From Burkholderia ubonensis subsp. mesacidophila (GTDB lineage Bacteria > Pseudomonadota > Gammaproteobacteria > Burkholderiales > Burkholderiaceae), in NCBI RefSeq assembly GCF_002097715.1, contig NZ_CP020738.1:186001-250000 (forward strand): 64,000 nucleotides of DNA, given 5' to 3'. The position numbers and the translations under genes are program-made. Shown piece after piece: positions 5,701 through 64,000 of the stretch; the first letter of the stretch is position 1; every line of letters begins with the position of its first letter. The notes below the pieces were generated by a model. It did not search any database, was not told the DNA's origin, and worked only from the letters and a program-made list of their open reading frames with translations.

Positions 5701-8700
5701 TGCTGCTGCTCGGCGGCGACGAACGCGTCGAGCTCGGCTTGCCGCGCAGCGTTGTCCAGCGTGCGGCAATCGAACACCTCAAGCGCCGGGGCGGCTTCGC
5801 GCCGGATCAGTTGCAGCGGCGTCGAGAAGCCGTCGAGCGCGAACACGGTGCGCAGCGTCGCGTGCGCGCGCGTCACGGCTGCGAGCGCGCGGCGCCATGC
5901 GGCTTCGTCCCACGCGGGAATCCGCAGGCGATAGCGGAACACGTCGTGGAAGACCGTGCCGCCGTCGCGTTCGCGATGGAACAGCATCCCGAGTTGCAGG
6001 CGGGACATCGGCAGCGCGTCTTCGAGCCCGTCGGGCAGCAACGCGCGGTCGGCGTCCGACAGCAGCGCGAATGGCGCGGGCGCGGCGGACACCGACAGCG
6101 GCGGCAACGGGTCGCGATCGACGGCTTCGGCGAGCGCGGCGAGCGTCGGGCATTCGCGCAACTGGCGCGGCGACACGTATACGCCCTGCGCACGTGCGTC
6201 GGTGACGACTTCGAGCGAATTGAGGCTGTCGCCGCCGAGCGCGAAGAAACTGTCGTGGCGGGCGGGGGCACGGCCGAGGACGCGGGTCCAGATGTCGGCG
6301 AGCAGACGCTCGGTGGGCGTGGCGGGCGGCTCGCGATTGGTGTCGTCGGAGACGGCTTCCGGCTTGGGCAGCGCGCGGCGGTCGAGCTTGCCGTTGACGG
6401 TGAGCGGCAGCGCGTCGAGGACGACGAGGTGCGCGGGAATCATGTGAGCCGGCAGGTGCGCGGCGAGGTGGGCGCGCAGCGCGGCGGGATCGAGTCCGTC
6501 GTGCGCCGCGTCATCCGCATGCCGCTGCGTGACGTAAGCGACGAGCCGCGCATTGCCGTGCGCATCGTCGTCGGCGACCACGGCCGCATCGCGCACGCGC
6601 GGATGGTCGCGCAACGCGGCTTCGATCTCGCCGGGCTCGATGCGGAAGCCGCGAATCTTGATCTGCTGGTCGGCGCGGCCGAGATAGACGATCTCGCCGT
6701 CGGCGCGGCGTCGCGCGAGGTCGCCTGCGCGATAGCGCCGCGCGCCCGGCGCGCCGTCCGGATCAGGCACGAAGCGGGCTGCGGTGAGGCCGGGACGATT
6801 CAGATAGCCGCGCGCGACGCCCGCACCGCCAACGTGAATCTCGCCGGCGACGCCGTCGAGAACCGGCTCGCCGTGGCGATCGAGCAGTTGCAGCGAGAGA
6901 TCGGCCAGCGGCGCGCCGATCGGGCTGAGCGGTGCGTCGGCGTCAGCACGGCACAGCGTGCGCGCGGTGACATGGACGGTGGTCTCGGTGATGCCGTACA
7001 TGTTGACGAGGCGGGGCCGCTCGTCGCCGTAGCGGTCGAACCAGTCGCGCAGCGCGGCGGGGTCGAGCGCTTCGCCGCCGAACACGACGAGGCGCAGCGC
7101 GGAGAGCGTGCCGGGCTGCCGGTCGAGCAGGCGGAAGGCCGACGGCGTCTGGCTCAGGACGGACACGCGATGCACACGCAGGAAATCGGCGAACGCGAGC
7201 GGATCGCGGCTCGTCTCGAAGGGGACGAAGACCGCTTGCGCGCCGTGCAGCAGCGCGCCCCAGAGTTCCCACACGGAGAAGTCGAACGCGGTGGAGTGGA
7301 AGACGCTCCACACGTCGTCACTGGCGAGCGAGAACGGCTCACGCGTGACGTCGAACAGGCGCAGCACGTTCGCGTGAGTAACGACGCAGCCTTTAGGTGT
7401 GCCGGTGGAGCCGGATGTGTAGATCACATAGGCGGCTTGCGCGGCGCAGACGGCGCGGGGCGGAGCCGTTCGGGCGCGGTCGCCACCAACATCGTCGAGA
7501 CTGATCGCACAGCGCGGCAGATCACCCGAGCGCGGCAGGCGTTCTAGCTCGTCGTTGGTTCCGACGATGGCGATCATCGCGCTGTCGTCGATGAGGAAAC
7601 GCAGTCGCTCGTCGGGATAGGCGGAATCGAGCGGCACATAGGCAGCGCCGGTCTTGAGGATCGCGAGCATGCCGATCGCGAAATGGATGTCGCGTCCGGA
7701 CGCGAGACCGATGCGCAACTCGGGGCCGGCGCCAAGATCGCGCAACGTCCAGGCAAGTGCGTTGGCGCGCGCGTCGAGCTGCGCATAGGTAAGCGAGCCG
7801 GCGTCGCCCGACACGGCAACCGCATCCGGATAGTGCGCGGCGATCCGCTCGAACGCATCACTCAGGTTCGCGCGTGACAGCGCCGGAAGGCCGCTCACAA
7901 GCGCCGCTCGAGCATCGAGAACCGTCGGCTTCACCGGAACGAGCCGCGCGTTCGCGTCGTCGAGCGCTTCGTGCAGCACGTCCCGGAACGTATCGACGAG
8001 CGTCTGCGGCGCGAGATCGCCGAAGCAAGAATCGTTCGTGTCGAAGTCGATGTAGATCGGCCGTCGCGCGCTGAAGTCGCGCACGTAGACGCGCAGCGGA
8101 TAGCTTTGCGCGGGCGTGCGCAGCGGCGTCACCGTCGTCGACGTGCCGTCGAACGTCGCGTCGTAGTCGTGCCGCTCGTACGACAGGCTCACTTCGAACG
8201 GCAGCCGGCCCTGGTCGCCCGACAGCGCGTCGAGCGGATAGCGCTGATGGCGGAAATCGGCCTTCAGCTGCGCGCCGATCCGCGCGACGAGATCCGCGAA
8301 CGTGTCGGCGGGCGCCGCCGGCGTGCGCAGCACGCAAAAGCCGAGAAAAAGCCCGATCGTCTGCTTGTCCGTCGCGGTGCGCCGGTTCAGGATCGGCAGG
8401 CCGATCGCGAGATCGCGTGCGCCGACGACGCGAAACAGCGTCGCCTGCAGGACCGCCGCGAAGAAATGGAACGGGCTCGCGCGCTGCGCGTCGGACCACG
8501 CGTGCAGCGCGGCGGTGTCGGCCGCGCTCAGCTCGAGCACCGTGCGACGGTTCGATTGCGACGTCGCGCGCGGGAAATACTCGCTGTCATACGACGCGAG
8601 GCGCTCGGCCCAGTAGCGGCGCGACGCGTCGCATTTGTCGGAGGCCAGATACGCGCGCTCGTCCGCGAGCATCGCGTCGACGCGGGTCTCGTGCCACGCA

Positions 8701-9194
8701 GACGGCGTCTCGCCCGCCCGCAGCCGGTTGTACGCTTCGCAGATGCGTGCGTAGAAGAGGGACGTGCCCCATCCGTCGAACAGCGCGTGATGGAATTTCG
8801 TATAGGCGACGTAGTCGTCGTCGCCAACCTGCATCAGCACCATCCGGCAGGCGATTTCGCGACCGTCGGTCGCAAAGCGGTGATTCACGAAATCGTCGTC
8901 GATGAAGCGCTGCGCTTCGGCATGCGGATCGGCGTGCGCGCGCAGGTCGAGCATCTCGCGCACGAAGCGCGCGTCGTCGTGCACGATCTGGAACAGGCCG
9001 TCGTCGCCGTCATGCAGCGACGAGCGCACCGCGGCGCTGTGCTGCGCGACGAAGTCCGCCGCGCGCCAGAACAGCGCGACATCGAGCGCGCCGACGATGC
9101 GCGACGACGCGCCGATGTGCGCGAGCCGATGGTCTTCATGGATGTTTTGCGCCGCGAGGATGTTGCGCTGTGCCGCCCGGAGGGGGTATTTCAT
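2748..9194 (-). CDS. Dimodular NRPS, C-A-T-C-A-T, threonine-like A domains
   Basis: Builds two residues of a peptide. Start chosen at ATG 9194 (MKYPLRAAQ, the usual beginning of a C domain); an in-frame ATG at 9257 would add 21 residues. Length about 2148 aa. Domains: C1 (HHALFDGWG, residues 135-143), A1 (about 450-960), T1 (GGDSL near 988), C2 (FHHAIVDGWS near 1193), A2 (about 1530-2030), T2 (GGDSI near 2066). Both A domains carry YTSGSTGTPKG and NMYGITETT. My reading of the specificity residues against GrsA is D-F-W-S-V-G-M-V-H-K for each, close to the known threonine code DFWNIGMVHK. A1-T1 and A2-T2 DNA is nearly identical at an offset of 3234 bp. Upstream of the C-T-E subunit and divergent from an exporter. 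Starting with a C domain suggests an acylated first residue or an upstream partner. Confidence 0.93.
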   Translation of the reverse strand: MKYPLRAAQRNILAAQNIHEDHRLAHIGASSRIVGALDVALFWRAADFVAQHSAAVRSSLHDGDDGLFQIVHDDARFVREMLDLRAHADPHAEAQRFIDDDFVNHRFATDGREIACRMVLMQVGDDDYVAYTKFHHALFDGWGTSLFYARICEAYNRLRAGETPSAWHETRVDAMLADERAYLASDKCDASRRYWAERLASYDSEYFPRATSQSNRRTVLELSAADTAALHAWSDAQRASPFHFFAAVLQATLFRVVGARDLAIGLPILNRRTATDKQTIGLFLGFCVLRTPAAPADTFADLVARIGAQLKADFRHQRYPLDALSGDQGRLPFEVSLSYERHDYDATFDGTSTTVTPLRTPAQSYPLRVYVRDFSARRPIYIDFDTNDSCFGDLAPQTLVDTFRDVLHEALDDANARLVPVKPTVLDARAALVSGLPALSRANLSDAFERIAAHYPDAVAVSGDAGSLTYAQLDARANALAWTLRDLGAGPELRIGLASGRDIHFAIGMLAILKTGAAYVPLDSAYPDERLRFLIDDSAMIAIVGTNDELERLPRSGDLPRCAISLDDVGGDRARTAPPRAVCAAQAAYVIYTSGSTGTPKGCVVTHANVLRLFDVTREPFSLASDDVWSVFHSTAFDFSVWELWGALLHGAQAVFVPFETSRDPLAFADFLRVHRVSVLSQTPSAFRLLDRQPGTLSALRLVVFGGEALDPAALRDWFDRYGDERPRLVNMYGITETTVHVTARTLCRADADAPLSPIGAPLADLSLQLLDRHGEPVLDGVAGEIHVGGAGVARGYLNRPGLTAARFVPDPDGAPGARRYRAGDLARRRADGEIVYLGRADQQIKIRGFRIEPGEIEAALRDHPRVRDAAVVADDDAHGNARLVAYVTQRHADDAAHDGLDPAALRAHLAAHLPAHMIPAHLVVLDALPLTVNGKLDRRALPKPEAVSDDTNREPPATPTERLLADIWTRVLGRAPARHDSFFALGGDSLNSLEVVTDARAQGVYVSPRQLRECPTLAALAEAVDRDPLPPLSVSAAPAPFALLSDADRALLPDGLEDALPMSRLQLGMLFHRERDGGTVFHDVFRYRLRIPAWDEAAWRRALAAVTRAHATLRTVFALDGFSTPLQLIRREAAPALEVFDCRTLDNAARQAELDAFVAAEQQHDFDVAHGPMLRLFIHRVADDAIHVTLSFHHAIVDGWSVATLMTEIIGNACGGPLAEPASDAPVLALHAAAERDALADDALRRAWRERLSRRPATLLAGSDGADGGGGANGGDDATRTDGRRTVERIVRRVSPPLSASLAARARTLGVELRTLLLAAHLRTLSMLTGSDCPVTGYVVHNRPDHAHSTRATGLFLNTVPFGARLAPGSWAGLIRQVAAAERELDALKRLPLAAIADEAGAGRLFDVAFNYIHFHVYRDALDLPGVAVVDFDAHEETDFPLLVQFARDPAGDGFDVSLHYDVAQFRAAQVERHVAVLDAALRDIAADVDAPWLAMPVAGVRGLPATTRTPIAPTLRHANLCDAFEQIAAHDPDAVAVSGDAGSLTYAQLDAHANALAWTLRDLGAGPELRVGLASGRDIHFAIGMLAILKTGAAYVPLDSAYPDERLHFLIDDSAMIAIVGTNDELERLPRSGDLPRSAISLDDVGGDRARTAPPRAVCAAQAAYVIYTSGSTGTPKGCVVTHANVLRLFDVTREPFSLSEHDVWSVFHSTAFDFSVWELWGALLHGAQAVFVPFETSRDPLAFADFLRVHRVSVLSQTPSAFRLLDRQPGTLSALRLVVFGGEALDPAALRDWFDRYGDERPRLVNMYGITETTVHVTARTLCRADADAPFSPIGAPLADLSLQLLDRHGEPVLDGVAGEIHVGGAGVARGYLNRPGLTAARFVPDPDGAPGARRYRAGDLARRRADGEIVYLGRADQQIKIRGFRIEPGEIEAALRDHPRVRDAAVVADDDAHGNARLVAYVTQRHADDAAHDELDPAALRAHLAAHLPAHMIPAHFVVLDALPLTVNGKLDRRALPKPEAVSDDANREPPATPTERLLADIWARVLGREPARHDSFFALGGDSIASLKALNAARLATGLDLPLQGMFTQPTLHALAAWIDSLAADAGAAGASTPTPVRRAPRVRARISAGPDGSHLTTLENAP
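3001..7884. repeat. Internal duplicated A-T coding segment (3001-4650 and 6235-7884)
   Basis: About 1.65 kb of the NRPS gene occurs twice in direct orientation, 3234 bp apart, with only scattered substitutions. For example the stretch starting at 4561 matches that starting at 7795, and 3047 matches 6281. The C domains between them are not similar to this degree. This fits module duplication followed by gene conversion of the A domains. Confidence 0.85.
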
Positions 9195-9494
9195 CGGACT
9201 GCCCGCCGTAGATGGATTCGCTGTAGAGGGTTCTTCGGATGCCGATACATTGCGCACGCGTCGCCGGATGCGGCCATTCGCAAGTGACGGAAATTAAAAC
9301 ACCGCGCCGGCCGAGCGTCTGTCCCCCCAACGCCGGACAATGCGCGCGCGGTCCGTCATGCATTCCCATGACAGACATCGTCCGTCGCCGGTGCTCTAAT
9401 CCGGCAGGCCTGTTCGCGCGGCTGCCGCACGAACGTCGAATCCGGCGCGTTCGCGCCGCGTGAGCTTCATCGCGCTCAAACCGGGAAGGAATGC
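9195..9494. promoter_or_regulatory. Divergent promoter region, NRPS / MFS exporter
   Basis: Roughly 300 bp between the NRPS start (minus strand) and the exporter start (plus strand). It must hold promoters for both. I see no convincing -35/-10 pair or operator palindrome in it and no gene. Confidence 0.5.
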
Positions 9495-10799
9495 ATGTCG
9501 CCGGGTCGTCGTTTCTTTTTTTTCTGGCTGGGCGAATCGTCGATGCAATTCGCCGCCGCGCTGATGTCGTTCGCACTCGGCGTGTGGGTCTATCGGCATT
9601 CCGGCTCGGTGACGGCCTTTTCGAATACGGTGATCGCCGCGACGCTGCCGTCGGTGCTGATCCTGCCGTTCGCGGGCGGCCTGGCCGACCGGATCGACCG
9701 CAAGCTCATCATCGTGTCGGCCAACGCGGCGCTCGCGTTGCTGACGCTGCTGCTGCTCGCGCTGTTGTTCGCAGGCAAGCTGCAGCCGGTACATCTTTAC
9801 GCGTTCAACGCGTGCGCGTCGGCGGTCGGCGCATTTCGGACACCTTCCTGTCAGGCATCGATCCATTCAATTGTCGAGAACGGCGCGCTGACTCGCGCGA
9901 ACGGCCTGATGGGCATCGGCAAGAACGTGTCGACGCTCGTCGCGCCGCTGCTCGGCGGGATCATCATGGGCGGCGCCGGCCTGAACGCGGTATTCGCGAT
10001 CCATTTCTTCGCGAACCTCGCGGCGATGCTGTGCGTGTTCAGGGCGCTTGCGCATCTCGGCACGGCGTCCGCCGAGCCGGCCCGCGCGAAGCGGCCGCTG
10101 CTGCGCGACGTGCTGTCGGGCATCGCGAGCGCGCTGCGCTTCTTCGAAGCGGAGCCGCTGATGCTCGGGCTGCTCGGGTACGTGATGATCCAGAGCGCGC
10201 TGCTCTCGCTCGCGACGATGATGATCGCGCCGCTCGTGCTCTCGAATCATTCGAGCGCGCAGCTCGGGCTCGTCTACACGTCAGCCGCGATCGGCGGGCT
10301 CGCCGGCATGTCGCTCCTCATCGCGACGACCAATCCGCAGCGCCTGATGCTGATCGTCGTGTGCGCGGATGCGGTGCTGTCGCTGTGCATGCTGTCGATC
10401 GGCCTCGTGTCGGACACGTCGGCGTACTGCGCGATCGCGTTCGTCGCGCTGGCGGTGGGCAGCGTCGCCGAGGGGTGCTGCAACGCGCTGTGGATGCGCA
10501 AGATCCCGGCGCGCAACAAGGCCAGCGTGCTGTCGTTCGTCAGCATGCTGATGATCGCGACGATGACGGTCGTCGTCGCGGTGGGCGGGTTCGTCGTCGA
10601 TCGTGTGCTGGAGCCCGCGCTGTCGGCGGGCGGGCCGTTCGCGCAGGCGGCGAACGCGTGGTTCGGGATCGGCAAGGGCGGCGGCGTCGCGCTGCTGTTC
10701 GTCGCGGTGGGCGCGACGAGCGTGCTGCTGTGCGCGTGCATGTTCGCCCATCCGCGCATGCGGCGGATCGATCTGCTGGTGCCGGATGGCGCGGGATGA
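9495..10799 (+). CDS. MFS exporter of the EntS-like type
   Basis: Integral inner-membrane transporter of 434 aa with about 12 hydrophobic segments. It has the MFS loop motif GGLADRIDRK after TM2 and an N-terminal half resembling the MFS_3 / enterobactin-exporter group. It is transcribed away from the NRPS genes with only 300 bp between them, so the most likely job is export of the NRPS product; this is inferred from position. Start at ATG 9495, preceded by GGGAAGGA; an overlapping ATG at 9491 is in another frame. The gene ends in a strong hairpin shared with the convergent regulator gene. Substrate unknown. Confidence 0.88.
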   Translation: MSPGRRFFFFWLGESSMQFAAALMSFALGVWVYRHSGSVTAFSNTVIAATLPSVLILPFAGGLADRIDRKLIIVSANAALALLTLLLLALLFAGKLQPVHLYAFNACASAVGAFRTPSCQASIHSIVENGALTRANGLMGIGKNVSTLVAPLLGGIIMGGAGLNAVFAIHFFANLAAMLCVFRALAHLGTASAEPARAKRPLLRDVLSGIASALRFFEAEPLMLGLLGYVMIQSALLSLATMMIAPLVLSNHSSAQLGLVYTSAAIGGLAGMSLLIATTNPQRLMLIVVCADAVLSLCMLSIGLVSDTSAYCAIAFVALAVGSVAEGCCNALWMRKIPARNKASVLSFVSMLMIATMTVVVAVGGFVVDRVLEPALSAGGPFAQAANAWFGIGKGGGVALLFVAVGATSVLLCACMFAHPRMRRIDLLVPDGAG

Positions 10800-10908: not shown

Positions 10909-12357
10909 TCAGGCCTGCGCGTCGGCCAGCATCTGGCCGGCGATTTCGCCGACGCGCTCCAGCGCGCGCCGATGCTCGGCGCTCCACGGTCCCGGCAGGC
11001 TGATCCGGATGCAGTTCCGATAGGTGTCCGACGCGCTGAACATCGTCCCGGGAGCGATCAGGATCTGTTCTTCGAGGCAGGCCTTGAACAGGGTCAACGA
11101 ATCCAGCTTGCCCGGCAGTTCGACCCACAACATCGATCCGCCGACCGGGTCGGTCATGCGCGTGCCGGTCGGAAACGCGCGGGCAATGATCCGGCGGGCG
11201 TCGCCGACGCTGTTGCTGTTCGCCTTGTGCAACTGGCGGAGCCGGCGGTTGTAGCTGGATTCCGTCAACAGTTCGGCCAGCGCGAGCTCGTTGAGCGAGC
11301 AGTTGCCGCCCGACGTCGCCGATTTCAGCATCCTTACCCTGGCCGCAAAGCGCCCGGCGTGCAGCCAGCCGACGCGCAAGCCCGGGGCGATCGTCTTCGA
11401 ATAGGAGCCGCACGGCAGCACCCAGCCGTCCGCGTCGAACGACCTCACCGCGCGGGAATAGGCATCGCCCGTGACGAGGTCGCTGTAGATCACGTCCTCG
11501 ATCATCGGAACCCCGTGGTTCGCCAGCAGCTGCGCCAGGCGCTCGCGTTCCGCGAGCGGCATGCAGGTGCCCATCGGATTCGACAGCGTCGGCGTCGCCA
11601 GCACCGCACTCACCTGGCACGTGCGCAACGCCAACGCCAGCGCATCGACGGAAAGACCGTCGCGAGGGTGAGCGGGGATCTCCAGGACGCGCAGCCCGAG
11701 CGCGTCCAGTATCCGCAGGAAGCCGAACGACGTCGGCGATTCCACTGCAATCGTGTCCCCGGGTTTCGACAAGGCCATCAGGCAGAGGCTGACGGATTCG
11801 GTCGTGCCGGTCGTCAGCACGATCTCGCGAGGATCGAGCGTGCATCCCATCGCGAGCGTGCGCCGGGCGATCGCCTTGCGCAGCGCGTCCTCGCCGGGCG
11901 GCGTCGGGTAGCGCGCCAGCGAGGTGCCGCTGCGCTGGATGGCGCGCAGCACCGCGCGCCTCGTCTTGTCGGACTGCATCAGCCCGCTCGACGGATAGCC
12001 CGATCCGAACGACACGAGGTTCGGCGCGCTGGCCGAGTACATCATCGTTTCGATGAGCGTTGCCGCCTCGACCGCGGCCGACAACGCGGGGGGCGGGCTT
12101 GCCTCGGGCTCCGGCAGCTCGCGCGAGCGTTGTGCAACGTAATGCCCCGCTTTCGGCCGGGACTCGATCAGCCGCGCGTCCTCGAGATTCCTGTACGCCT
12201 CCAGTACCGTCGACAGCGATACCGCGTGTTCCTTCGCACACTTTCGCAACGAAGGCAGGCGATCGCCGCTGGCGTATGTGCCTAGCCGGATTGCCGATTC
12301 GATCTGATGAGCCAGTTGCAAATAAAGGGGCTGGTTTCGTTTTGGATTTTCTTGCAT
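10909..12357 (-). CDS. MocR-type transcriptional regulator (GntR HTH + aminotransferase fold)
   Basis: About 482 aa. The N-terminus (about 12-85) is a GntR-type winged helix (QPLYLQLAHQIESAI, GDRLPSLRKCA, LSTVLEAYRNLE). The rest (about 115-480) is a fold-type I aminotransferase domain with the PLP lysine in SYSKTIAPGLRVGW near residue 320. MocR proteins sense PLP or amino-acid ligands and usually control an adjacent divergent gene. Here the neighbour is the chorismate-branch operon starting at 12611, so this is probably its regulator. ATG 12357 (MQENPKR) is preferred, with AAAGAGAA upstream; the frame stays open to 12441 but those residues look unlike the family. Twin CAGTACAGA repeats in the intergenic region are the likely operator. 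Confidence 0.9.
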   Translation of the reverse strand: MQENPKRNQPLYLQLAHQIESAIRLGTYASGDRLPSLRKCAKEHAVSLSTVLEAYRNLEDARLIESRPKAGHYVAQRSRELPEPEASPPPALSAAVEAATLIETMMYSASAPNLVSFGSGYPSSGLMQSDKTRRAVLRAIQRSGTSLARYPTPPGEDALRKAIARRTLAMGCTLDPREIVLTTGTTESVSLCLMALSKPGDTIAVESPTSFGFLRILDALGLRVLEIPAHPRDGLSVDALALALRTCQVSAVLATPTLSNPMGTCMPLAERERLAQLLANHGVPMIEDVIYSDLVTGDAYSRAVRSFDADGWVLPCGSYSKTIAPGLRVGWLHAGRFAARVRMLKSATSGGNCSLNELALAELLTESSYNRRLRQLHKANSNSVGDARRIIARAFPTGTRMTDPVGGSMLWVELPGKLDSLTLFKACLEEQILIAPGTMFSASDTYRNCIRISLPGPWSAEHRRALERVGEIAGQMLADAQA

Positions 12358-12610: not shown

Positions 12611-14071
12611 ATGCTCACCATCCAGACCGAAACCATCCGAATCAAGGCAGCACCTGACGTCGATCCATTCAGCGTATATCGCATGGCTGTAGAGCGATTC
12701 GGCGCGGAACACGTATTCCTGGCCGAATCGGTCAGCGGCCCCGAAATCGATTGCAAGCAGTCTTTCGTCGCGATACGACGAATTGCGTCCATCCGCTTCA
12801 CTGCGGATTCGGTCAATATCGACGCGGCTCCCGAAATTAGGGGGCATTTGACGCACACCGCCGAGACCCTGCCGGACGCGCCCCGATTCGATCCCGACGG
12901 CCGCGCGGACCTCGATTCCCCGGACCAGTTGTGGCGCCTGATGCGCGCGTTCCTGTTTTCCAGCTATCGCGTCGCAACCACCACGGACGAATTCGCGGCC
13001 GGCTTCGTCGTGCGGCTCGATTACGACACGGCGGCGCTGATCGAGCGCCTGCCGCGCCGGTTGCCGCGCACGAACGCGACACTCGTTCGCCTCGATCTGT
13101 ACCAGCACGTGGTGGCGTTTCATCGCGACAGGGTCGCGCTTCACGTGAACTATGGCCCCGGCTTCGGCGAACCCGACATTCCGTCGCTTCGACAGCTGCT
13201 CACGGCTGCGCCGCCGTTTCGGCCCGCCGCGCCGGAGGCGTCCGGCATCCGGTTCTCGACGACGAAGGAACGCTATCTCGACGCCTGCCGGACCGCGCTG
13301 GACCATATCCATGCGGGCGACATCTACCAGGTGCAGCTCGGCCACGAGATCCGCGTCAGGACCGGCATGGACCCGGTGTCGCTCTACGCGCATCTCAGGG
13401 CGCAGAACCCGTCGCCATACATGTTCCTGCATCAGGTCGACGACATGACGCTGGTGGGCGCGAGTCCCGAGAACTACGTTCGGCTCGAAGGGCGTCGCCT
13501 GTCGATGCGGCCGATCGCCGGCACGCTGGCGAAATCGCCGGCCGTCGACGGGGATACGCTGCGGCGCGAATTGTGTGCGTCCGTGAAGGAGAACGCGGAA
13601 CACGTGATGCTGGTCGATCTGTGCCGCAATGACATCGGACGCCTGTGCGAACCCGGTTCGCTCGACGTTCCGAGCCTGATGGCGATGGAGGAGTTTCCGT
13701 CTCTCTATCACCTGGTTTCCACCGTGACCGGCGAGCTGCGGGCCGGATGCGACGCCGTGGATGTCCTGCGCGCGACGTTTCCCGCCGGGACCATGGTGGG
13801 GGCGCCGAAGATCAGGGCCATGGAGATCATCGAGCAACTGGAAGCGTCGCCGCGCGGCCAATATGCCGGCGCGATCGGCCTGATCGATTTCCGGGGCGGG
13901 ATGAACATGGCGCTGTGCATTCGGATGGCTTGCCGGATCGACGGCGAATACCGGTTGAGGGCGAGCGCGGGCGTGGTGTTCGATTCGGAGCCGGAGCGGG
14001 AATGGCTCGAAACGCTGGCCAAGATGCGGCTGGCTTATCGCATTCTGACGGGACAGGAGCTCGTGGCATGA
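12611..14071 (+). CDS. Anthranilate synthase component I-like chorismate enzyme
   Basis: 486 aa, TrpE/PabB/PhzE superfamily. The C-terminal chorismate-binding domain is complete: YLDACRTALDHIHAGDIYQVQL, GASPENYVR, RPIAGT (residues 302-306), ENAEHVMLVDL, GTMVGAPKIRAMEIIE, and a final AGVVFDSEP. Alanine in PIAGT is typical of enzymes that aminate C2 (anthranilate or aminodeoxyisochorismate); 4-aminodeoxychorismate synthases carry PIKGT. So it likely converts chorismate to anthranilate or to the unaromatised ADIC. Start ATG 12611 has no clear ribosome binding site. Its stop overlaps the amidotransferase start (ATGA), so the two form the usual heterodimer. Surrounded by tailoring enzymes and not by trpD/trpC, so a secondary role is likely. 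Confidence 0.88.
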   Translation: MLTIQTETIRIKAAPDVDPFSVYRMAVERFGAEHVFLAESVSGPEIDCKQSFVAIRRIASIRFTADSVNIDAAPEIRGHLTHTAETLPDAPRFDPDGRADLDSPDQLWRLMRAFLFSSYRVATTTDEFAAGFVVRLDYDTAALIERLPRRLPRTNATLVRLDLYQHVVAFHRDRVALHVNYGPGFGEPDIPSLRQLLTAAPPFRPAAPEASGIRFSTTKERYLDACRTALDHIHAGDIYQVQLGHEIRVRTGMDPVSLYAHLRAQNPSPYMFLHQVDDMTLVGASPENYVRLEGRRLSMRPIAGTLAKSPAVDGDTLRRELCASVKENAEHVMLVDLCRNDIGRLCEPGSLDVPSLMAMEEFPSLYHLVSTVTGELRAGCDAVDVLRATFPAGTMVGAPKIRAMEIIEQLEASPRGQYAGAIGLIDFRGGMNMALCIRMACRIDGEYRLRASAGVVFDSEPEREWLETLAKMRLAYRILTGQELVA

Positions 14072-14685
14072 ACGTCGCACTTGTGGATGCTTACGACAGT
14101 TTCGTATACGTCATCGACTTGTATCTCCGGACGATGGGCCTGCAGACCCGCGTGCTGCGATGCGACGATCCGCGCATCGATCGCCTGCTGGCCGAGCCGC
14201 CGTCCGCGGTGGTGCTGGGGCCCGGGCCGGGCCGCCCGGAAGACGCGGGCTACCCGCAGATGATCCGCGCACTCGAAGGGCGCGTGCCGGTCATGGGCGT
14301 GTGCCTGGGCCATCAGGCGATCGGCCTCGCCTATGGCGGGGAGGTCGTGCGGGCAGGCACCTGCATGCACGGCAAGACGAGCGTCGTCGCCAATGACGGG
14401 ACGGGCGTCTTCGCCAAGACGTCGGGCAAGCCGTTCTCGGCGACCCGCTACCACTCGCTCGTGATCGCGCGCGACAGCGTGCCCGACCCGCTGGTCGTCA
14501 GCGCGCATGCGCTCGACGACAACGAGGTGATGGGCGTGCGCCATCGGCGCTATCCGATCGAAGGGGTGCAATTCCATCCGGAGAGCATTTCCACCGAGAA
14601 CGGCATGTCGATCTTCAGCAGTTTCTTCGAGTACTACCTGGGCGCCGACGCGCCATTCTCAACCGCATCATCAACCCATTCGTAG
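14068..14685 (+). CDS. Glutamine amidotransferase, anthranilate synthase component II-like
   Basis: 205 aa, class I glutamine amidotransferase. It has the oxyanion loop GPGPGRPEDAG, the nucleophile Cys79 in GVCLGHQ, and the His-Glu pair in GVQFHPESI. It releases ammonia from glutamine for the component I partner. ATG 14068 overlaps the previous stop by ATGA, which decides this start although the frame is open far upstream. N-terminal NVALVDAYDSFVYVI is a TrpG-like opening with Ala-Tyr where most have Asn-Tyr. Next gene follows after 9 bp. Confidence 0.9.
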   Translation: MNVALVDAYDSFVYVIDLYLRTMGLQTRVLRCDDPRIDRLLAEPPSAVVLGPGPGRPEDAGYPQMIRALEGRVPVMGVCLGHQAIGLAYGGEVVRAGTCMHGKTSVVANDGTGVFAKTSGKPFSATRYHSLVIARDSVPDPLVVSAHALDDNEVMGVRHRRYPIEGVQFHPESISTENGMSIFSSFFEYYLGADAPFSTASSTHS

Positions 14686-14694
14686 AGCGACCCG

Positions 14695-15048
14695 ATGAAC
14701 ACTGTTTCGTACGACGACGTTTCCTTCGACACGGAAAGCGCGCCTTGGGCGAGCTGGAGCAAACCCGGCGCGGACGGCCGCGTCAAGACCTTCTTTTCCA
14801 ACGGCAAGCGCTTGCGCCTGCTCGAGCTGCCCGCCGGCTTCGATGAGGCGCACTGGTGCACGGTGGGTCACCAGGGGTTCGTTTTCGAGGGGTGCTTCAC
14901 GATCATCTTCGACGACCGAACCTTCGAGTGCCGGCCGGGCACGGTATTTTCGATCCCGGACGGCGTGCGTCATCGGTCCAGGGGCGCGGCCGACGGCCAA
15001 ACGCTCGTGTTCGTCGTCGACGACCAGGGCGATCAGGCGCAGCGATAA
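14695..15048 (+). CDS. Small cupin-domain protein
   Basis: 117 aa single-domain cupin. The barrel motifs are seen as VGHQGFVFEGCFTIIFDD and CRPGTVFSIPDGVRHRSRG, with PDGVRH matching the second cupin motif. The first motif has a single histidine (GHQG), so metal ligation may be incomplete. Such cupins act as isomerases, dioxygenases or binding proteins; in bacilysin synthesis a cupin (BacB) isomerises a prephenate-derived intermediate, a useful precedent given the chorismate context. Three bases separate it from the next start, so it is in the middle of a tight operon. Exact reaction unknown. Confidence 0.82.
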   Translation: MNTVSYDDVSFDTESAPWASWSKPGADGRVKTFFSNGKRLRLLELPAGFDEAHWCTVGHQGFVFEGCFTIIFDDRTFECRPGTVFSIPDGVRHRSRGAADGQTLVFVVDDQGDQAQR

Positions 15049-15051
15049 CCC

Positions 15052-16458
15052 ATGCCATCCACCATGACGCTCCCGTCCCGCTCGCTGCGGGACGCACTCG
15101 ATGCCTGTCGCGCGCGCGGCGGCTCCGTGGTGGAGATCGACGCCGGGCTCGACCCGCGCGTCGAAATCGCCGCCCACTATCGCGCGCATTTCGCGACGTC
15201 GCCGGGCAGTTCCCGCAGCGGCGACGAGCCTGTCGTGCTCTACGCCGGCGGGAACGGACGCATGCCGGTGCTGATGGGATTGTTCGGCTCGCGCGCGCGC
15301 AACGAATGGCTGCTCGGCGCGGAGCCGGGGGGCGGGGCGCGGCACTTCGCGCAACTGCTCGGCTCGCGCGTCGCGCCCGAATGGCGCGACGCGCCGCCGT
15401 GTCGCGAGCGCCAGGCGCCGGAGCGGCTGCGCGCGCTGCCGGTCCCGACCACCACCGCCGTCGATGCCGGGCCTTACCTGACGGCCGGCATCGTCTGCGC
15501 AGGCGACCCCGACAGCGGTTTCGCGAGCGTGTCGATTCACCGGATGCGTGTGCTCGACGATTCGCGCCTGACGATCTGGATTTTTCCCGGACGCGATCTC
15601 GACCGGCTGTACCGGAAGGCGCTCGACGCAGGGCGGACGCTGCCCGTGTCGATCAATATCGGCGCGCCGCCGGCCGTGTACCTGACGTCGAGCCTGAGCG
15701 CGCCGTTCGTCGAGCCGGGAAGCGGCGAGATCGAAGCGGCGGGCGCGATGCTCGGCGCACCGCTCGAGCTTGCGCGCTGCGCGACGAACGACACGTTCTG
15801 CTTCGCCCGCAGCGAGATCGTGATCGAGGGAACGCTGCTGGCGGACACGGCGGACGAATATGCGAACGCGGCCAACCGCTTCGCGATGCCCGAATTCCTG
15901 GGCTATATGGGCGAAGCGCGCGCGTCGCTTCCGGTGGTCGAGGTCAGCGCGGTGTTTCATCGGCGTGACGCGATCTTTCAGGCGTTTCTCGGCCCCGGAA
16001 AGGAGCAGTCGGAGCTGCTCGCGTTGCCCGCCGAGGCCGGCATGCTCCGTCACCTGAGCCAACTGGCGCCGGAGGATGCGACGCTGCTCGACGCGCACTA
16101 CCTGTCGGCGGGCGGCGGGCAACTGATCCTCGTGCTGCGCGTCCGCAAGCACCGCGACACGCCCGGTGCGATGGAGCGGATCCGTCGCGCGGTCATCGAG
16201 CGGCACGCGCTCGTCAAGGCGATCTGGATCGTCGACGAGGATATCGACATTCACTCTCCCGAAGACGTGCTCTGGGCGGCGGCGACGCGTTTTCAGCCGA
16301 GCCGCGACCTCTACATGCAGACGCGCGTTGCCGGCTTTCCGCTCGATCCGTCGCAAGGCATCGGCTATCTCGACGCATCCGCATGCGTGACCGACAAATA
16401 TCTGCTGGACCTGACCGCGCCGGTGGCGCTTGCGCAGCGATTCCGGCGCACCTGGTAA
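15052..16458 (+). CDS. UbiD-family prenyl-FMN decarboxylase
   Basis: 468 aa. The prenylated-FMN/metal-binding signature is seen as SIHRMRVLD (His163, Arg164, Met165). The C-terminal family stretch with acidic residues reads DEDIDIHSPEDVLWAAATR near residue 396. These are the hallmarks of UbiD enzymes, which reversibly (de)carboxylate aromatic or alpha,beta-unsaturated acids and need prFMN from a UbiX. No UbiX-like gene is in the window, so the cofactor must come from elsewhere. Next to anthranilate-synthase-like genes, an aromatic acid of that branch is the likely substrate (inference). Follows the cupin by 3 bp. Confidence 0.88.
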   Translation: MPSTMTLPSRSLRDALDACRARGGSVVEIDAGLDPRVEIAAHYRAHFATSPGSSRSGDEPVVLYAGGNGRMPVLMGLFGSRARNEWLLGAEPGGGARHFAQLLGSRVAPEWRDAPPCRERQAPERLRALPVPTTTAVDAGPYLTAGIVCAGDPDSGFASVSIHRMRVLDDSRLTIWIFPGRDLDRLYRKALDAGRTLPVSINIGAPPAVYLTSSLSAPFVEPGSGEIEAAGAMLGAPLELARCATNDTFCFARSEIVIEGTLLADTADEYANAANRFAMPEFLGYMGEARASLPVVEVSAVFHRRDAIFQAFLGPGKEQSELLALPAEAGMLRHLSQLAPEDATLLDAHYLSAGGGQLILVLRVRKHRDTPGAMERIRRAVIERHALVKAIWIVDEDIDIHSPEDVLWAAATRFQPSRDLYMQTRVAGFPLDPSQGIGYLDASACVTDKYLLDLTAPVALAQRFRRTW

Positions 16459-16483
16459 AGGCTTTGACCGACTGGACAAGAAC

Positions 16484-17137
16484 ATGAACCCACCTGAATC
16501 GAATCCGCTGCATTTCACCATTGTCACCGGCTCGGAGCGCGCCTCGGGGAACACCGAGCAAGTGGCCGAGCACATCGGCGCGCTGCTGGCCGACGAGGGC
16601 TGCACGATCGACATCGTGCGCCTGCGCGAACACCGGATTGCGCCGTGCGGCGCGTGCGGCGAATGCAATACGCGCACGTCGGCGTGCGAGCAGGACGACG
16701 ACATGCCCGCGATCATCGCGCGGCTGCGCAAAGCCGACGGCATCGTGTACGCGGTGCCCGTGCACGGCTACGGCATGGCGCATCCGATGCAGATCTTCAT
16801 CGAACGGGCGGGCGTCGGCTACCTGCGCTTCGAGCGGCCGCTGGCCAACAAGGTCGCGGGCGCCGTCGTCACGGGCCGGCGCTATGCGCACGAAACGGTA
16901 TTCCACCAGCTCGTCAGCAATTTCCTGCTCAACCGGATGATTCTCGTCGGCAGCGGGTATCCGGTCGTCATCCACGGCGGTTCGCCGGGAGCCGGCATGC
17001 AGGACCGCGAAGGCCTTGCGTCGGTCCGTTCGATGATCGCGCGCATGACCGGCATGGCGCGCCTGCTGCGCGCGACGCCCGCGGCGCTGCGCGCGCAATG
17101 CCTCGTTCTGGACACCGTCAACGAGCGTGCGGCGTAG
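16484..17137 (+). CDS. Flavodoxin-like NAD(P)H-dependent flavin reductase
   Basis: 217 aa, NADPH-dependent FMN reductase / iron-sulfur flavoprotein group. The FMN phosphate loop is seen as GSERASGNTEQ. A cysteine-rich CGACGECN follows around residues 55-62, and VPVHGYGMAHPMQIFIER resembles the family's second flavin loop. It could supply reduced flavin, reduce a ring or nitro/quinone intermediate, or support the prFMN enzyme. ATG 16484, 25 bp after the decarboxylase stop, is preferred over in-frame codons inside that gene. The ribosome binding site is weak. Confidence 0.82.
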   Translation: MNPPESNPLHFTIVTGSERASGNTEQVAEHIGALLADEGCTIDIVRLREHRIAPCGACGECNTRTSACEQDDDMPAIIARLRKADGIVYAVPVHGYGMAHPMQIFIERAGVGYLRFERPLANKVAGAVVTGRRYAHETVFHQLVSNFLLNRMILVGSGYPVVIHGGSPGAGMQDREGLASVRSMIARMTGMARLLRATPAALRAQCLVLDTVNERAA

Positions 17138-17193
17138 GCCACCCGCACCGATTTTTCCCCGCACGCATTCATCTCATTTCTGGAGGGATTCAC

Positions 17194-17484
17194 ATGCACG
17201 CAGCAGAACAGTTGGCGGACATCCGCCGGCAAATCGACGGCATCGACGATCAGATCGTGCCGTTGCTCGCGAAACGCATCTCGCTCGCGCTGGAAGCGTC
17301 GCGATACAAGCACTCCGTCGACGAGATTCGCGGCTGCGACCGGGTGCAGCAGGTGCTCGACGCCGTGGCGGCGCGGGTGCGCCAGGCCGACGGCGACGTC
17401 GACACGATCGTCGCGATCTACCGCTTCATCATCGAGGCGCTCACCGAGCTTCAACTGCGCGAGAAGGGGCTGGCGAACTCATGA
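17194..17484 (+). CDS. Chorismate mutase type II / PchB-like protein
   Basis: 96 aa all-helical AroQ-fold protein: LADIRRQIDGIDDQIVPLLAKRISLALEASRYK, then RVQQVLDAV and a C-terminal helix ending ELQLREKG. The Arg and Lys of helix 1 and the ASRYK lysine match the active site of AroQ and of isochorismate pyruvate lyase (PchB). It may turn chorismate into prephenate or, in this setting, rearrange or split an aminated isochorismate made by the upstream pair. Excellent ribosome binding site TGGAGGGA 7 bases before ATG 17194. Stop overlaps the next start. Confidence 0.85.
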   Translation: MHAAEQLADIRRQIDGIDDQIVPLLAKRISLALEASRYKHSVDEIRGCDRVQQVLDAVAARVRQADGDVDTIVAIYRFIIEALTELQLREKGLANS

Positions 17485-18197
17485 TGCGCGGCTTTCGCTA
17501 CTCCGACGCGCTGGCCGCCGATTTTCCCGGCTTGTCCTCGCTCGTGTGCATGGTCGACGGCATTTCCGCGGAGCCGGTCGTCAGCGACACGGTGGAGCGC
17601 AATCTGGCGATCGCGCGCGAACAGCTGCAGCGGCACGGATCGGAAAGTCAGCTCGAGTCTGTCCGCCACTGGCGCGCCGCCTACCGGAAAACCGGCGTCG
17701 ACCCGACCAAGTTCCGGATGGCGGCCGAATCGATTCTGCGGCGGCTGCGCGCCAGCGACGCATTCACCACCGGATTGCACCCGTTCGTCACGCTCTGCAA
17801 TGCGTTGTCCGCCCGGTTCGCGGTGCCGGTCGCCGGACTCGACATCGACCGCATCGACGGGCGGCTCGAAGTGGGCTACGCGTCCGGCCGGTCGGAATAC
17901 GACGGGTTCGACGGCGTGGTGTCCGTCGTGCCCGCCGGCGAAGTGACGTTCGAGGACGAGGCGAACCGTGCGCATGCGCGCAAATGGTCGCATCGGCAGA
18001 GCGGCCTGTCCGCGATATCGCCGTCGACGACGCGTGCGTTCGTCATCGCTGAAGCGTTGCATCCGGAGGGGGAGCGCGATCTGCTCGCCCTGTCGGAGGC
18101 GCTGAGCTACGCCATCCACACGCACTGGCCGGGCGCGACGTGCGCAAGCCGGATGCTTGCCGGCGATGCGCTGACTGCCGGGTTTTCCTATCCCTGA
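17481..18197 (+). CDS. Stand-alone B3/4-domain protein (PheRS editing-domain homologue)
   Basis: 238 aa. It resembles the B3/4 tRNA-editing domain of phenylalanyl-tRNA synthetase beta as found in free-standing proteins. Family-typical stretches are the WRAAYRKTGVDPTKFRMAAE segment, HPFVTLCNALSARFAVPVAGLDIDRIDG, and the C-terminal ALSYAIHTHWPG. The PheRS domain hydrolyses misacylated Tyr-tRNA(Phe); free-standing copies are mostly uncharacterised. Starts within the previous stop (ATGATGA), so it is translationally coupled to the mutase. In an operon that seems to make an aromatic amino acid, clearing of mischarged tRNA as self-protection is an attractive role, but it is inference. Direct action on a pathway intermediate is the alternative. 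Confidence 0.78.
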   Translation: MMRGFRYSDALAADFPGLSSLVCMVDGISAEPVVSDTVERNLAIAREQLQRHGSESQLESVRHWRAAYRKTGVDPTKFRMAAESILRRLRASDAFTTGLHPFVTLCNALSARFAVPVAGLDIDRIDGRLEVGYASGRSEYDGFDGVVSVVPAGEVTFEDEANRAHARKWSHRQSGLSAISPSTTRAFVIAEALHPEGERDLLALSEALSYAIHTHWPGATCASRMLAGDALTAGFSYP

Positions 18198-18215
18198 AGT
18201 TTTCGGAACGATCAA

Positions 18216-19577
18216 ATGACTCAGACCACTCGCTTTATCCTTGATGAATCGCGGCTTCCGCATACGTGGTACAACCTCGCCGCGGACTTGCCGAAGCCGA
18301 TGCCGCCGATGCTTCACCCCGACACCCGGCAGCCCGTGCAGGCGGACGATCTCGCACGGCTGTTTCCGCCGGCAATCGTCGAGCAGGAACTGTCGGTCGA
18401 GCGGGATATTCCGATTCCCGAGGCCGTGCGCGATATCTATCGTCTGTGGCGGCCGTCCCCGCTCATGCGCGCGCATCGGCTGGAGCGGGCGCTCGATACG
18501 CCGGCGCGGATCTACTACAAATACGAAGGCGTGTCGCCGGCCGGCTCCCACAAGCCCAATTCGGCGATACCGCAGGCCTGGTACAACAAGCAGGCCGGCG
18601 TGAAACGGCTGGTGACGGAGACCGGCGCCGGCCAGTGGGGAACGTCGCTCGCGTTCGCCGGCCAGCTTTTCGGGCTGGACGTCACGGTGTTCCAGGTGCG
18701 CGTGTCGTTCGATCAGAAACCTTATCGCCGGGCGGTCATGGAAACCTACGGCGCGCGCTGCGTGGCGTCGCCGTCGACGCTGACCGAGTTCGGCCGCAAC
18801 GTGCTGTCGACTCAGCCCGATCATCCGGGGTCGTTGGGCATCGCGATTTCCGAGGCGGTCGAAGCGGCGGTGACGACGGACGACGCGCGGTATGCGCTCG
18901 GGTCGGTCCTGAATCACGTGCTGCTTCACCAGACGATCATCGGGCAGGAAGCGCTGATGCAGATGGAAATGGCGGGCGACGATCCTGACGTGATCGTTGC
19001 GTGCACCGGAGGCGGTTCCAATTTCGCGGGCCTCGTGTTTCCGTTCCTGGGCGTGCAGCTGCGCGGCGGACGGTCCCGCCGCTACGTCGCCGCCGAGCCG
19101 GCCGCATGTCCGTCATTGACGCGCGGGCGCTACGCGTATGACTTCGGCGACACGGCCGGCATTACGCCGCTTGCGAAGATGCATACGCTGGGCTCGACGT
19201 TCACGCCGCCGGGCGTTCATGCCGGCGGGTTGCGCTATCACGGCATGGCGCCGATGGTGTCGCACCTGCGCGAACTCGGCCTCATCGAGGCGATGGCGTT
19301 CCAGCAGACCGAGTGCTTCGGCGCAGGACAGCTGTTTGCGCGATGCGAGGGCATCATCCCGGCGCCGGAGGCGAACCATGCGATCGCCGGCGCCATTCAT
19401 GAAGCGTTGCGGTGCAAGCGCGAAGGCCGGCCGGAGGCGATTCTGTTCAACCTGTCGGGGCACGGCCACTTCGATATGAACGCCTACCAGACCTTCAACG
19501 CGCAGAAGCTGACGGACCAGGCCTACGACGAAACCGAACTGGCTGCGGCGCTCGCCAGCCTGCCGACCGTGTCGTGA
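18216..19577 (+). CDS. TrpB-like (TrpB2-type) PLP-dependent beta-substitution enzyme
   Basis: 453 aa, long tryptophan-synthase-beta-like form. The PLP lysine is Lys113 in SPAGSHKPNSA. The phosphate-binding loop is GGGSNF, and the family stretch TETGAGQWGTSLAFAG is intact. TrpB enzymes replace the hydroxyl of serine with a nucleophile, normally indole. No trpA or trpC is adjacent, so either free indole or another aromatic nucleophile is used. Last gene of the operon, 18 bp after the B3/4 gene, followed by a strong hairpin. A role in joining a chorismate-derived aromatic to a C3 amino-acid unit is inferred. Confidence 0.88.
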   Translation: MTQTTRFILDESRLPHTWYNLAADLPKPMPPMLHPDTRQPVQADDLARLFPPAIVEQELSVERDIPIPEAVRDIYRLWRPSPLMRAHRLERALDTPARIYYKYEGVSPAGSHKPNSAIPQAWYNKQAGVKRLVTETGAGQWGTSLAFAGQLFGLDVTVFQVRVSFDQKPYRRAVMETYGARCVASPSTLTEFGRNVLSTQPDHPGSLGIAISEAVEAAVTTDDARYALGSVLNHVLLHQTIIGQEALMQMEMAGDDPDVIVACTGGGSNFAGLVFPFLGVQLRGGRSRRYVAAEPAACPSLTRGRYAYDFGDTAGITPLAKMHTLGSTFTPPGVHAGGLRYHGMAPMVSHLRELGLIEAMAFQQTECFGAGQLFARCEGIIPAPEANHAIAGAIHEALRCKREGRPEAILFNLSGHGHFDMNAYQTFNAQKLTDQAYDETELAAALASLPTVS

Positions 19578-19590
19578 TGCTGCGTCGATG

Positions 19591-19616
19591 ACGCGCCGGC
19601 CGCATGGCCGGCGCGT
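19591..19616. terminator. Bidirectional terminator hairpin
   Basis: Perfect 11-bp stem ACGCGCCGGCC / GGCCGGCGCGT with loop GCAT. It lies 14 bp after the TrpB-like stop and 17 bp after the LysE stop, between convergent genes. Confidence 0.75.
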
Positions 19617-19632
19617 TGTCATGCGCGAACGT

Positions 19633-20268
19633 TCAGCTTCCCGCGCCGCGCCGATACAGGCTGAGCGCAACCGCCAGGCCCGCCAGCATGCCGGCGCAGC
19701 CGCGGTTGAGCCATTGCAGCGCCTTCCCGGACAGCACCCTCATCGCATGATGACCGCCGACCGCGTACACGCTCATCAGCGCGATATCGATCAACGCGGT
19801 CGTGATCGCGAGCGTGATGTACTGGGGGGTGACTGCCGCGCGGGCCTGAATGAACTGCGGCAGGAACGCGGAGAAGAACAGCAGGCCCTTGGGATTGGAT
19901 AGCGCGACCAGCAGCGAACGCCTGAATGCGGACCAGCCGTCGGATGCCGCGATCGTCTCGGTGATGTCGGGCTGGGCGAGCATCGCCGGCGCACGCCAGA
20001 GCGCCCACGCGAGATACAGCAGGTAGGCGGCGCCTACCCATTTCACGGCGGCAAACAATTGTTCCGATGCTTGCAGGATCGCGCCCAGGCCGCAGCCCAC
20101 GGCGCCGATCAGGATCAGATCGGACAAGGCGGCGCCGGCGATGCCATAGGCGGCGACACGCAGGCCGCGCGTCGCGCCGTTGTTCAGCGCCAGCAGCATC
20201 GTGGGACCGGGGGTGATGGTGACGGCAGAGACCGCAACCACGTACAGCAGAAGTGTCGTTGAATCCAA
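19633..20268 (-). CDS. LysE/RhtB-family amino-acid exporter
   Basis: 211 aa inner-membrane protein with about six hydrophobic segments. It shows the family N-terminus (VSAVTITPGPTMLLALNNGATRG) and SNPKGLLFFSAFLPQF before TM4. RhtB proteins export amino acids such as threonine, homoserine or aromatic analogues. It is convergent with the chorismate-branch operon and may export that pathway's amino-acid product; position is the only evidence for this link. Confidence 0.88.
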   Translation of the reverse strand: MDSTTLLLYVVAVSAVTITPGPTMLLALNNGATRGLRVAAYGIAGAALSDLILIGAVGCGLGAILQASEQLFAAVKWVGAAYLLYLAWALWRAPAMLAQPDITETIAASDGWSAFRRSLLVALSNPKGLLFFSAFLPQFIQARAAVTPQYITLAITTALIDIALMSVYAVGGHHAMRVLSGKALQWLNRGCAGMLAGLAVALSLYRRGAGS

Positions 20269-63937: not shown

Positions 63938-64000
63938 GATGGGCACCGAGCAGGCAGGTTGAAGGTCCGCCCGGCGGGCGAGACCGGGCGTTCAGGCGAC

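Follow-up and report, generated by a model that had tools for sequence, protein, structure and literature searches.

The stretch of Burkholderia ubonensis subsp. mesacidophila DNA analyzed here (the window: 64,000 bp, positions 186001-250000 of G000:C2, one of four contigs in a genome of 7.84 Mb and 66% GC) carries a compact eight-gene operon that probably makes and exports a free non-protein aromatic amino acid and protects the producer through tRNA editing. We propose a route of five steps. A TrpE/TrpG-type pair would aminate chorismate at C2 to give 2-amino-2-deoxyisochorismate (ADIC), with the enolpyruvyl group retained, and an SgcG-type flavoprotein would then dehydrogenate the dihydroaromatic ring to yield 3-enolpyruvoylanthranilate (OPA). 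A UbiD-family enzyme would strip the ring carboxylate, and an AroQ-fold protein and/or a small cupin would strip pyruvate, so that a simple amino-arene remains, with 2-aminophenol as the simplest case. A TrpB2-type enzyme, or a canonical-type TrpB in Mixta theicola, would couple this amino-arene to serine-derived aminoacrylate and so add an alanine side chain, as in amino-hydroxyphenylalanine. Finally, a LysE-family protein would export the product, while tRNA charged with it would be hydrolyzed by a free-standing B3/4 protein, shielding the producer. Homology to characterized enzymes points to the first two steps, and family, fold and repeated co-occurrence to the last two; we infer the third step, the order in which UbiD, AroQ and cupin would act and the identity of the product.

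What emerges is an ADIC-branch pathway with an unusual idea of self-resistance. We know of no biosynthetic operon in which a trans-editing tRNA deacylase serves this purpose, and a search of the open-licence literature, which leaves most subscription journals uncovered, turned up no published pathway that combines these genes. A narrower version of the proposal, put forward tentatively and as possible rather than probable, is that of a new aromatic branch leading from ADIC/OPA to 2-aminophenol or a like amino-arene, in which a TrpB-type "phenol-alanine synthase" drawn from two TrpB families couples this compound to serine and a trans-editing deacylase gives the producer immunity.

A sequence-only reading of this DNA had described eight closely spaced genes with a MocR regulator in front and a LysE exporter behind, and both the open reading frames and the Pfam and NCBIfam profile matches, from which the family names are taken, bear out the families, order and spacing (Table 1). 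ATGA-type overlaps are found at the TrpE/TrpG and AroQ/B3/4 junctions. The MocR protein is read as a regulator because a GntR domain stands alongside its aminotransferase-like domain; it is also divergently encoded in a second species of the same genus (G048, 70% identity) and in Herbaspirillum sp. ASV7 (59%).

Table 1. Genes of the operon and its immediate flanks, with predicted functions and the profile matches behind the family names (positions in the window).
Feature	Position	Strand	Basis
MocR-type regulator (GntR + aminotransferase fold)	10909..12357	-	Pfam GntR and Aminotran_1_2; start codon chosen (~12357); divergent from the operon
TrpE-like chorismate aminating subunit, SgcD-type ADIC synthase (predicted)	12611..14071	+	Pfam Chorismate_bind; no cut-off reached among the best 25 of 26 NCBIfam models
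TrpG-like glutamine amidotransferase subunit	14068..14685	+	Pfam GATase; subfamily model trpG_papA is the sole NCBIfam cut-off reached
Small cupin, cluster marker	14695..15048	+	Cupin_2, below the Pfam cut-off
UbiD-family prenylated flavin mononucleotide (prFMN) decarboxylase (predicted)	15052..16458	+	All three UbiD domains
SgcG-type flavin mononucleotide (FMN) and Fe-S flavoprotein, predicted ADIC dehydrogenase	16484..17137	+	Pfam FMN_red
AroQ-fold protein, PchB (isochorismate lyase) type	17194..17484	+	Pfam CM_2
Free-standing B3/4 protein, predicted aminoacyl-tRNA deacylase	17481..18197	+	Pfam B3_4 only
TrpB2-type pyridoxal 5'-phosphate (PLP) enzyme, predicted serine (or O-phosphoserine) beta-substitution	18216..19577	+	Above both NCBIfam cut-offs for "TrpB-like PLP enzyme"
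LysE/RhtB-family amino acid exporter	19633..20268	-	Pfam LysE; behind the operon

A pointer to the start of the pathway came from a tblastn search of plasmids with the flavoprotein, which returned a match to SgcG of Streptomyces globisporus C-1027. When compared directly, the two proteins are 47.2% identical over 214 aa; likewise, the operon TrpE is 42.9% identical to SgcD over 471 aa and the operon TrpG is 46.9% identical over 207 aa to the amidotransferase adjoining SgcD in C-1027. Four Cys residues, the putative Fe-S cysteines, are invariant in all six flavoproteins that were aligned (the Herbaspirillum copy was left out because its gene is split). According to the published account, SgcD forms ADIC with no cleavage of pyruvate, and SgcG is an FMN and Fe-S enzyme that acts as an ADIC dehydrogenase with OPA as its product (PMC10098953). 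In a maximum likelihood tree of 30 TrpE-type proteins, one group (support 99/98) holds nine cluster TrpEs, SgcD and a relative from a Pseudomonas syringae plasmid, while outside it fall E. coli TrpE, E. coli PabB and the 17 paralog rows, which come from the seven cluster-bearing genomes. Within the group, the cluster copies interleave with SgcD and the P. syringae copy, such that they do not form one side of a branch, and the Mixta branch is long. Because of this interleaving, the midpoint root and warnings of long branches and uneven composition, only the outer grouping is used here.

As the TrpE/TrpG pair and the flavoprotein are related to the SgcD/SgcG pair, the exit from chorismate can be assigned by homology to ADIC, and not to anthranilate and tryptophan; ADIC is probably then converted to OPA. 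The "anthranilate-synthase-like pair" of the sequence-only reading is thus kept at the level of family, but its unspecified anthranilate-type pathway gives way to a branch point at ADIC. Other lines were set aside. The PIAGT motif of TrpE was dropped as proof, since aminodeoxychorismate synthases in the PDB alignments share it; 4-amino-4-deoxychorismate (amination at C4) is disfavored as an intermediate by the SgcD grouping; and anthranilate as the intermediate and aniline as the nucleophile would each leave the SgcG-type enzyme idle.

At the other end of the pathway, genes for a TrpB-type enzyme, a B3/4 protein and LysE occur together at four of the seven loci described below (the window, G048, Herbaspirillum and Mixta, the last with a split LysE gene). 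The best PDB matches of the window enzyme are TrpB2-type chains. The corresponding Mixta gene is of another kind, as its product exceeds the canonical trpB cut-off (544 vs 392 bits) and lies far under that for trpB_rel (180 vs 519 bits); its identity is 53% to a TrpB of the window genome and 46% to another TrpB of the Mixta genome. All four cluster TrpB-type proteins keep the GSHK/GAHK and ETGAGQ motifs, which we take to hold the Schiff-base Lys and the catalytic Glu, respectively. That two different TrpB families fill the same slot argues for serine beta-substitution as part of the predicted pathway, and this exchange in Mixta is the best evidence for it. Phenol-type nucleophiles look feasible for the TrpB fold, because PDB structures of this fold exist under the molecule name "Engineered tyrosine synthase".

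For the B3/4 protein, structures of CtdA are both the best PDB sequence match (9f7e and 9mkl) and the best fold match of a predicted model (TM-score to the query 0.63-0.67), with phenylalanyl-tRNA synthetase next; the mean predicted local distance difference test (pLDDT) score of this model is 75.6 and its residues 134-175 are unreliable. CtdA deacylates canavanyl-tRNA(Arg) and protects cells, as stated in the source (PMC10018355). Homologs of the window protein were found in 62 plasmid records. Among nine of these that were inspected (seven with annotation and two without), a GNAT acetyltransferase gene lies within a few genes of B3/4 in five of the seven annotated records, LysE is paired with B3/4 in one (Roseomonas) and a drug/metabolite transporter (DMT) gene accompanies it in another (Rhizobium). 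These contexts lend mild support to a role in defense against amino acid antimetabolites. Two findings strengthen the proposal, already made from the sequence, that the operon could yield an exported non-protein aromatic amino acid as a putative antimetabolite: the B3/4 protein is CtdA-like, and Mixta has a canonical-type TrpB in place of TrpB2. Also in favor of this proposal, the B3/4 gene of the Roseomonas mucosa plasmid (L045 6989-8274; 40.8% identity) overlaps the LysE translocator gene and the two may form a stand-alone resistance pair.

The proteins that would act in the third step can be compared with characterized relatives. AroY is the nearest solved relative of the UbiD protein, in which the Arg and two Glu (E..E) of the family motif are kept. 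For the AroQ-fold protein, the best NCBIfam model is isochorismate lyase, although the score is below the cut-off (52 of 126 bits), and PchB is among its four PDB matches, the top match being a designed protein. Residues R11, R28, K39, R50 and Q87 are present in all seven loci, as is a Val that replaces, as in PchB, the Glu of two E. coli chorismate mutase domains. Given the roles that we assume for these active-site residues, including the mutase Glu, Val at this position fits a C2-substituted, isochorismate-like substrate such as ADIC. The cupin of the window is 53-74% identical to those of the other six loci and has a weak, below-cut-off match to "DHCW" cupins. Its predicted model (pLDDT 86) is nearest to the Sthe2323, TM1459 and KdgF cupins; this resemblance in fold, common to many cupins, does not point to a function, KdgF-like enol-ether chemistry included. 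As Ruminiclostridium, an anaerobe, has kept the cupin too, it is unlikely to be an oxygenase. The net loss of carboxylate and pyruvate would give 2-aminophenol.

Two probes were used to find the gene set elsewhere. A search with peptide patterns of UbiD, which finds close relatives, covered one genome from each of 84,980 species and gave five loci, and a second UbiD search of 150 relatives gave matches in five genomes including that of the window, with the G048 copy at 77% identity. The small cupin served as the second, more specific probe (cut-offs of 1e-20 in the class sample of the window genome and 1e-12 in the others). With the query's own genome counted and some samples drawn from larger groups, it was found in 1/369 genomes of the window's class and 2/65 of its genus, 2/58 of the order and 2/341 of the class of Ruminiclostridium hungatei, 1/295 of the family of Mixta, 1/294 of the family of Herbaspirillum and 1/296 of the phylum of a metagenome-assembled genome (MAG) labeled Actinomycetes. 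The pathway is therefore rare and scattered. The seven cupin-positive genomes are those of the window, G048, Herbaspirillum sp. ASV7 (L009), M. theicola (L010), R. hungatei (L011), G537 (L026) and the MAG (L012).

The sequence-only reading had staked its pathway on the genes recurring together in other genomes, and they do: a core of six genes (TrpE, TrpG, the SgcG-like flavoprotein, cupin, UbiD and AroQ) is present in all seven cupin-positive genomes, spread over Burkholderiales, Enterobacterales, Clostridia and the Actinomycetes-labeled MAG. As each of these genomes carries the other five core genes around the cupin gene, the gene set is more than chance. Only G537, which was found by the cupin alone, is free of selection through UbiD, because the other six first surfaced in this way. 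The complete set, together with MocR and LysE, is found in G048 and Herbaspirillum. The Mixta locus has a different arrangement (cupin, TrpB, UbiD, AroQ and B3/4, with the flavoprotein, TrpE and TrpG genes on the opposite strand) and is flanked by open reading frames that by eye resemble integrases and transposases. As controls, more distant UbiD relatives were inspected: in 16 kb around each of those from G025 and G048 (both of the window's genus, 39-40% identity), and in 12.9 kb around one from a Pantoea edessiphila plasmid (L013, 32%), no other operon gene adjoins UbiD. Plasmids gave no match to the cupin probe and 409 records for UbiD, all below 60% identity; in the two UbiD records inspected among the 20 listed (H1 and H13), no other operon family was seen beside UbiD in the PLSDB gene table, which is incomplete.

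Several observations weigh against the proposed pathway. The TrpB, B3/4 and LysE proteins have no tblastn match in the locus stretches of R. hungatei (21 kb), the MAG (15.9 kb) and G537 (19 kb). Copies of TrpB and TrpB2 do exist elsewhere in these three genomes, one TrpB match in G537 lying ~25 kb beyond L026; in these Clostridia and MAG loci, the core either serves another end or has a distant partner gene. In the UbiD proteins of all seven clusters, AroY His327 is replaced by Gln and His436 by Phe or Trp (5ny5 numbering), while both are kept in four AroY-like controls. We take these two His residues to be catechol contacts and, because both are replaced, the UbiD substrate is not readable from AroY. 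The Gln is not specific to the clusters, as three UbiD paralogs of the same genus also have Gln at the His327 place, with Thr at the second. OPA is a poor fit for AroQ: the pericyclic reactions that AroQ enzymes catalyze are closed to an aromatic vinyl ether like OPA, so that the AroQ protein either acts before the dehydrogenation or does something new. Neither LysE nor DMT genes lie beside B3/4 in five of the seven annotated plasmid records. The flavoprotein gene of Herbaspirillum (L009 11409-12063) and the LysE gene of Mixta (L010 7591-8207) are each split between two frames, which may be due to assembly error or decay. Finally, a nonribosomal peptide synthetase (NRPS) gene stands beside the operon, and the product might be a building block for a peptide.

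The difficulty with OPA leads to a different use of the same genes, in which AroQ would rearrange ADIC itself by a [3,3] shift like that of an isochorismate mutase, the flavoprotein would aromatize the product and UbiD would decarboxylate it to 4-aminophenylpyruvate, which a host aminotransferase would convert to 4-aminophenylalanine. AroQ and the flavoprotein would both keep their native chemistries in such a Claisen route, and the Arg/Lys/Gln set of AroQ, with its PchB-like residue at the mutase Glu position, is kept in all seven loci. However, the TrpB-type enzyme would be left without a job, yet all four loci with B3/4 and LysE contain it, and that of Mixta is of another kind; moreover, neither a PapC-type dehydrogenase nor an aminotransferase is encoded among the eight operon genes. 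We regard this route as unlikely. Improbable, too, is the supply of an unusual amino acid to the NRPS on the left, by which the free amino acid would not be the end product. The NRPS gene (2748-9257, - strand; two each of Condensation, AMP-binding and PP-binding domains) and a major facilitator superfamily (MFS) gene (9495-10799, + strand) do adjoin the MocR gene, and NRPS-like reading frames continue leftward (2-2866, - strand, by eye) past the window into L089. In contrast, tblastn with the NRPS and MFS proteins finds nothing in the locus stretches of G048, Herbaspirillum and Mixta, the two adenylation domains in the window share a putatively threonine-like binding motif, and both B3/4 and LysE suit a free amino acid. 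Two transporter genes to the right of the operon likewise have no tblastn match in these three stretches.

Two characterized pathways share genes with the operon. A benzoxazolinate pathway like that of C-1027 would account for the homologs of SgcD, its partner and SgcG, and R. hungatei and G537 additionally have an AMP ligase 41% identical to that of C-1027. When the C-1027 and R. hungatei ligases were used as tblastn queries (E 1e-4), however, neither the whole window nor the stretches from Herbaspirillum, Mixta, G048 and the MAG gave a match, and UbiD, AroQ, cupin and TrpB are not part of the three-gene cassette described in PMC10098953. This reading is already disfavored and we consider it very improbable for the window. 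The presence of TrpE-, TrpG- and TrpB-like genes together might also indicate an alternative or duplicated tryptophan pathway, but the eight operon genes include no trpD, trpC/F or trpA, the genome has canonical-type TrpB and TrpE paralogs elsewhere, and the operon TrpE lies outside the group of E. coli TrpE; a role in tryptophan synthesis is the most doubtful of these explanations. Synthesis and export of a free aromatic amino acid through ADIC, with the B3/4 protein guarding the producer, is the explanation that we prefer.

Related loci also contain other genes of interest. In R. hungatei, partners at the locus include UbiX (over the ubiX_pad cut-off), a Flavodoxin_2 protein, an ApbA-type reductase, a second TrpG-TrpE fusion and a PaaK-type AMP ligase. 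The fusion, which belongs to the SgcD group, and the AMP ligase (41% identical to that of C-1027) lie beside the core in both R. hungatei (L011 14858-18440) and G537 (L026 1056-4638) and are likely a benzoxazolinate cassette. Another ADIC-branch cassette is carried by a plasmid of Pseudomonas syringae pv. actinidiae (L044 3722-11466), with genes for TrpE/TrpG, an AMP ligase, an iron-containing redox enzyme, an SgcG-type flavoprotein and an EamA transporter. In the MAG, the flavoprotein gene is directly preceded by a 3-deoxy-D-arabino-heptulosonate 7-phosphate (DAHP) synthase gene. Two genes like those for nitrogenase component 1 lie immediately upstream of the R. hungatei cluster (L011 3352-6041), the first identified by Oxidored_nitro and the second by eye. 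The 40% identical UbiD paralog of G025 (L090 3650-8604) adjoins genes that by eye resemble those for anthranilate phosphoribosyltransferase and phosphoribosylanthranilate isomerase, as well as an MFS gene. Within the window itself, a second NRPS gene (AMP-binding, PP-binding and Condensation) is located near the right edge (60857-63946, - strand).

If the proposed pathway is correct, the ADIC node, which leads to phenazines, pyrrolobenzodiazepines and benzoxazolinate, would have a further fate, and chorismate and serine would be the sources of an exported amino acid antimetabolite. Natural TrpB-type enzymes for unusual aromatic nucleophiles would also become available, along with an example of proofreading in trans as producer immunity and an explanation for the existence of some free B3/4 proteins. 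For finding further producers, the cupin provides a specific probe.

Among known systems, the closest to the first two steps is the SgcD/SgcG benzoxazolinate pathway of C-1027, which has a homologous aminating pair and Fe-S flavoprotein (43-47% identity) and a TrpE of the same group; unlike that pathway, the window operon has no AMP-ligase cyclase, and UbiD, AroQ, cupin and a TrpB-type enzyme are present instead. The operon also resembles PapABC, which we take to be a 4-aminophenylalanine pathway with a TrpE/TrpG-type pair followed by an AroQ-fold enzyme, in pairing TrpE/TrpG-type genes with an AroQ-fold enzyme, but it lacks a PapC-type dehydrogenase or aminotransferase and its TrpE is SgcD-like and outside the PabB group. 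PchB, an isochorismate pyruvate lyase, shares with the window AroQ the catalytic positions and the Val that replaces the mutase Glu, whereas the substrate of the window protein would be an amino analog and no salicylate pathway gene is found in the operon. The protocatechuate decarboxylase AroY, although the nearest solved relative of the window UbiD and alike in its R and E..E residues, differs from all seven cluster UbiDs at His327 and His436. The stravidin/amiclenomycin pathway was considered and rejected, as the chorismate plus branched-chain chemistry described in PMC13336041 does not match the operon. The B3/4 protein is most like CtdA, which is likewise a free B3/4 domain, has the nearest solved fold and offers a model for the proposed clearing of tRNA charged with an antimetabolite. 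In the CtdA study (PMC10018355), CtdA adjoins canavanine degradation and guards against a toxin from outside; no canavanine gene turned up among the Pfam and NCBIfam families of the operon, a comparison that did not extend to its flanks. In contrast to CtdA, the B3/4 gene of the window is part of the operon of the apparent maker itself, and its substrate would be aromatic.

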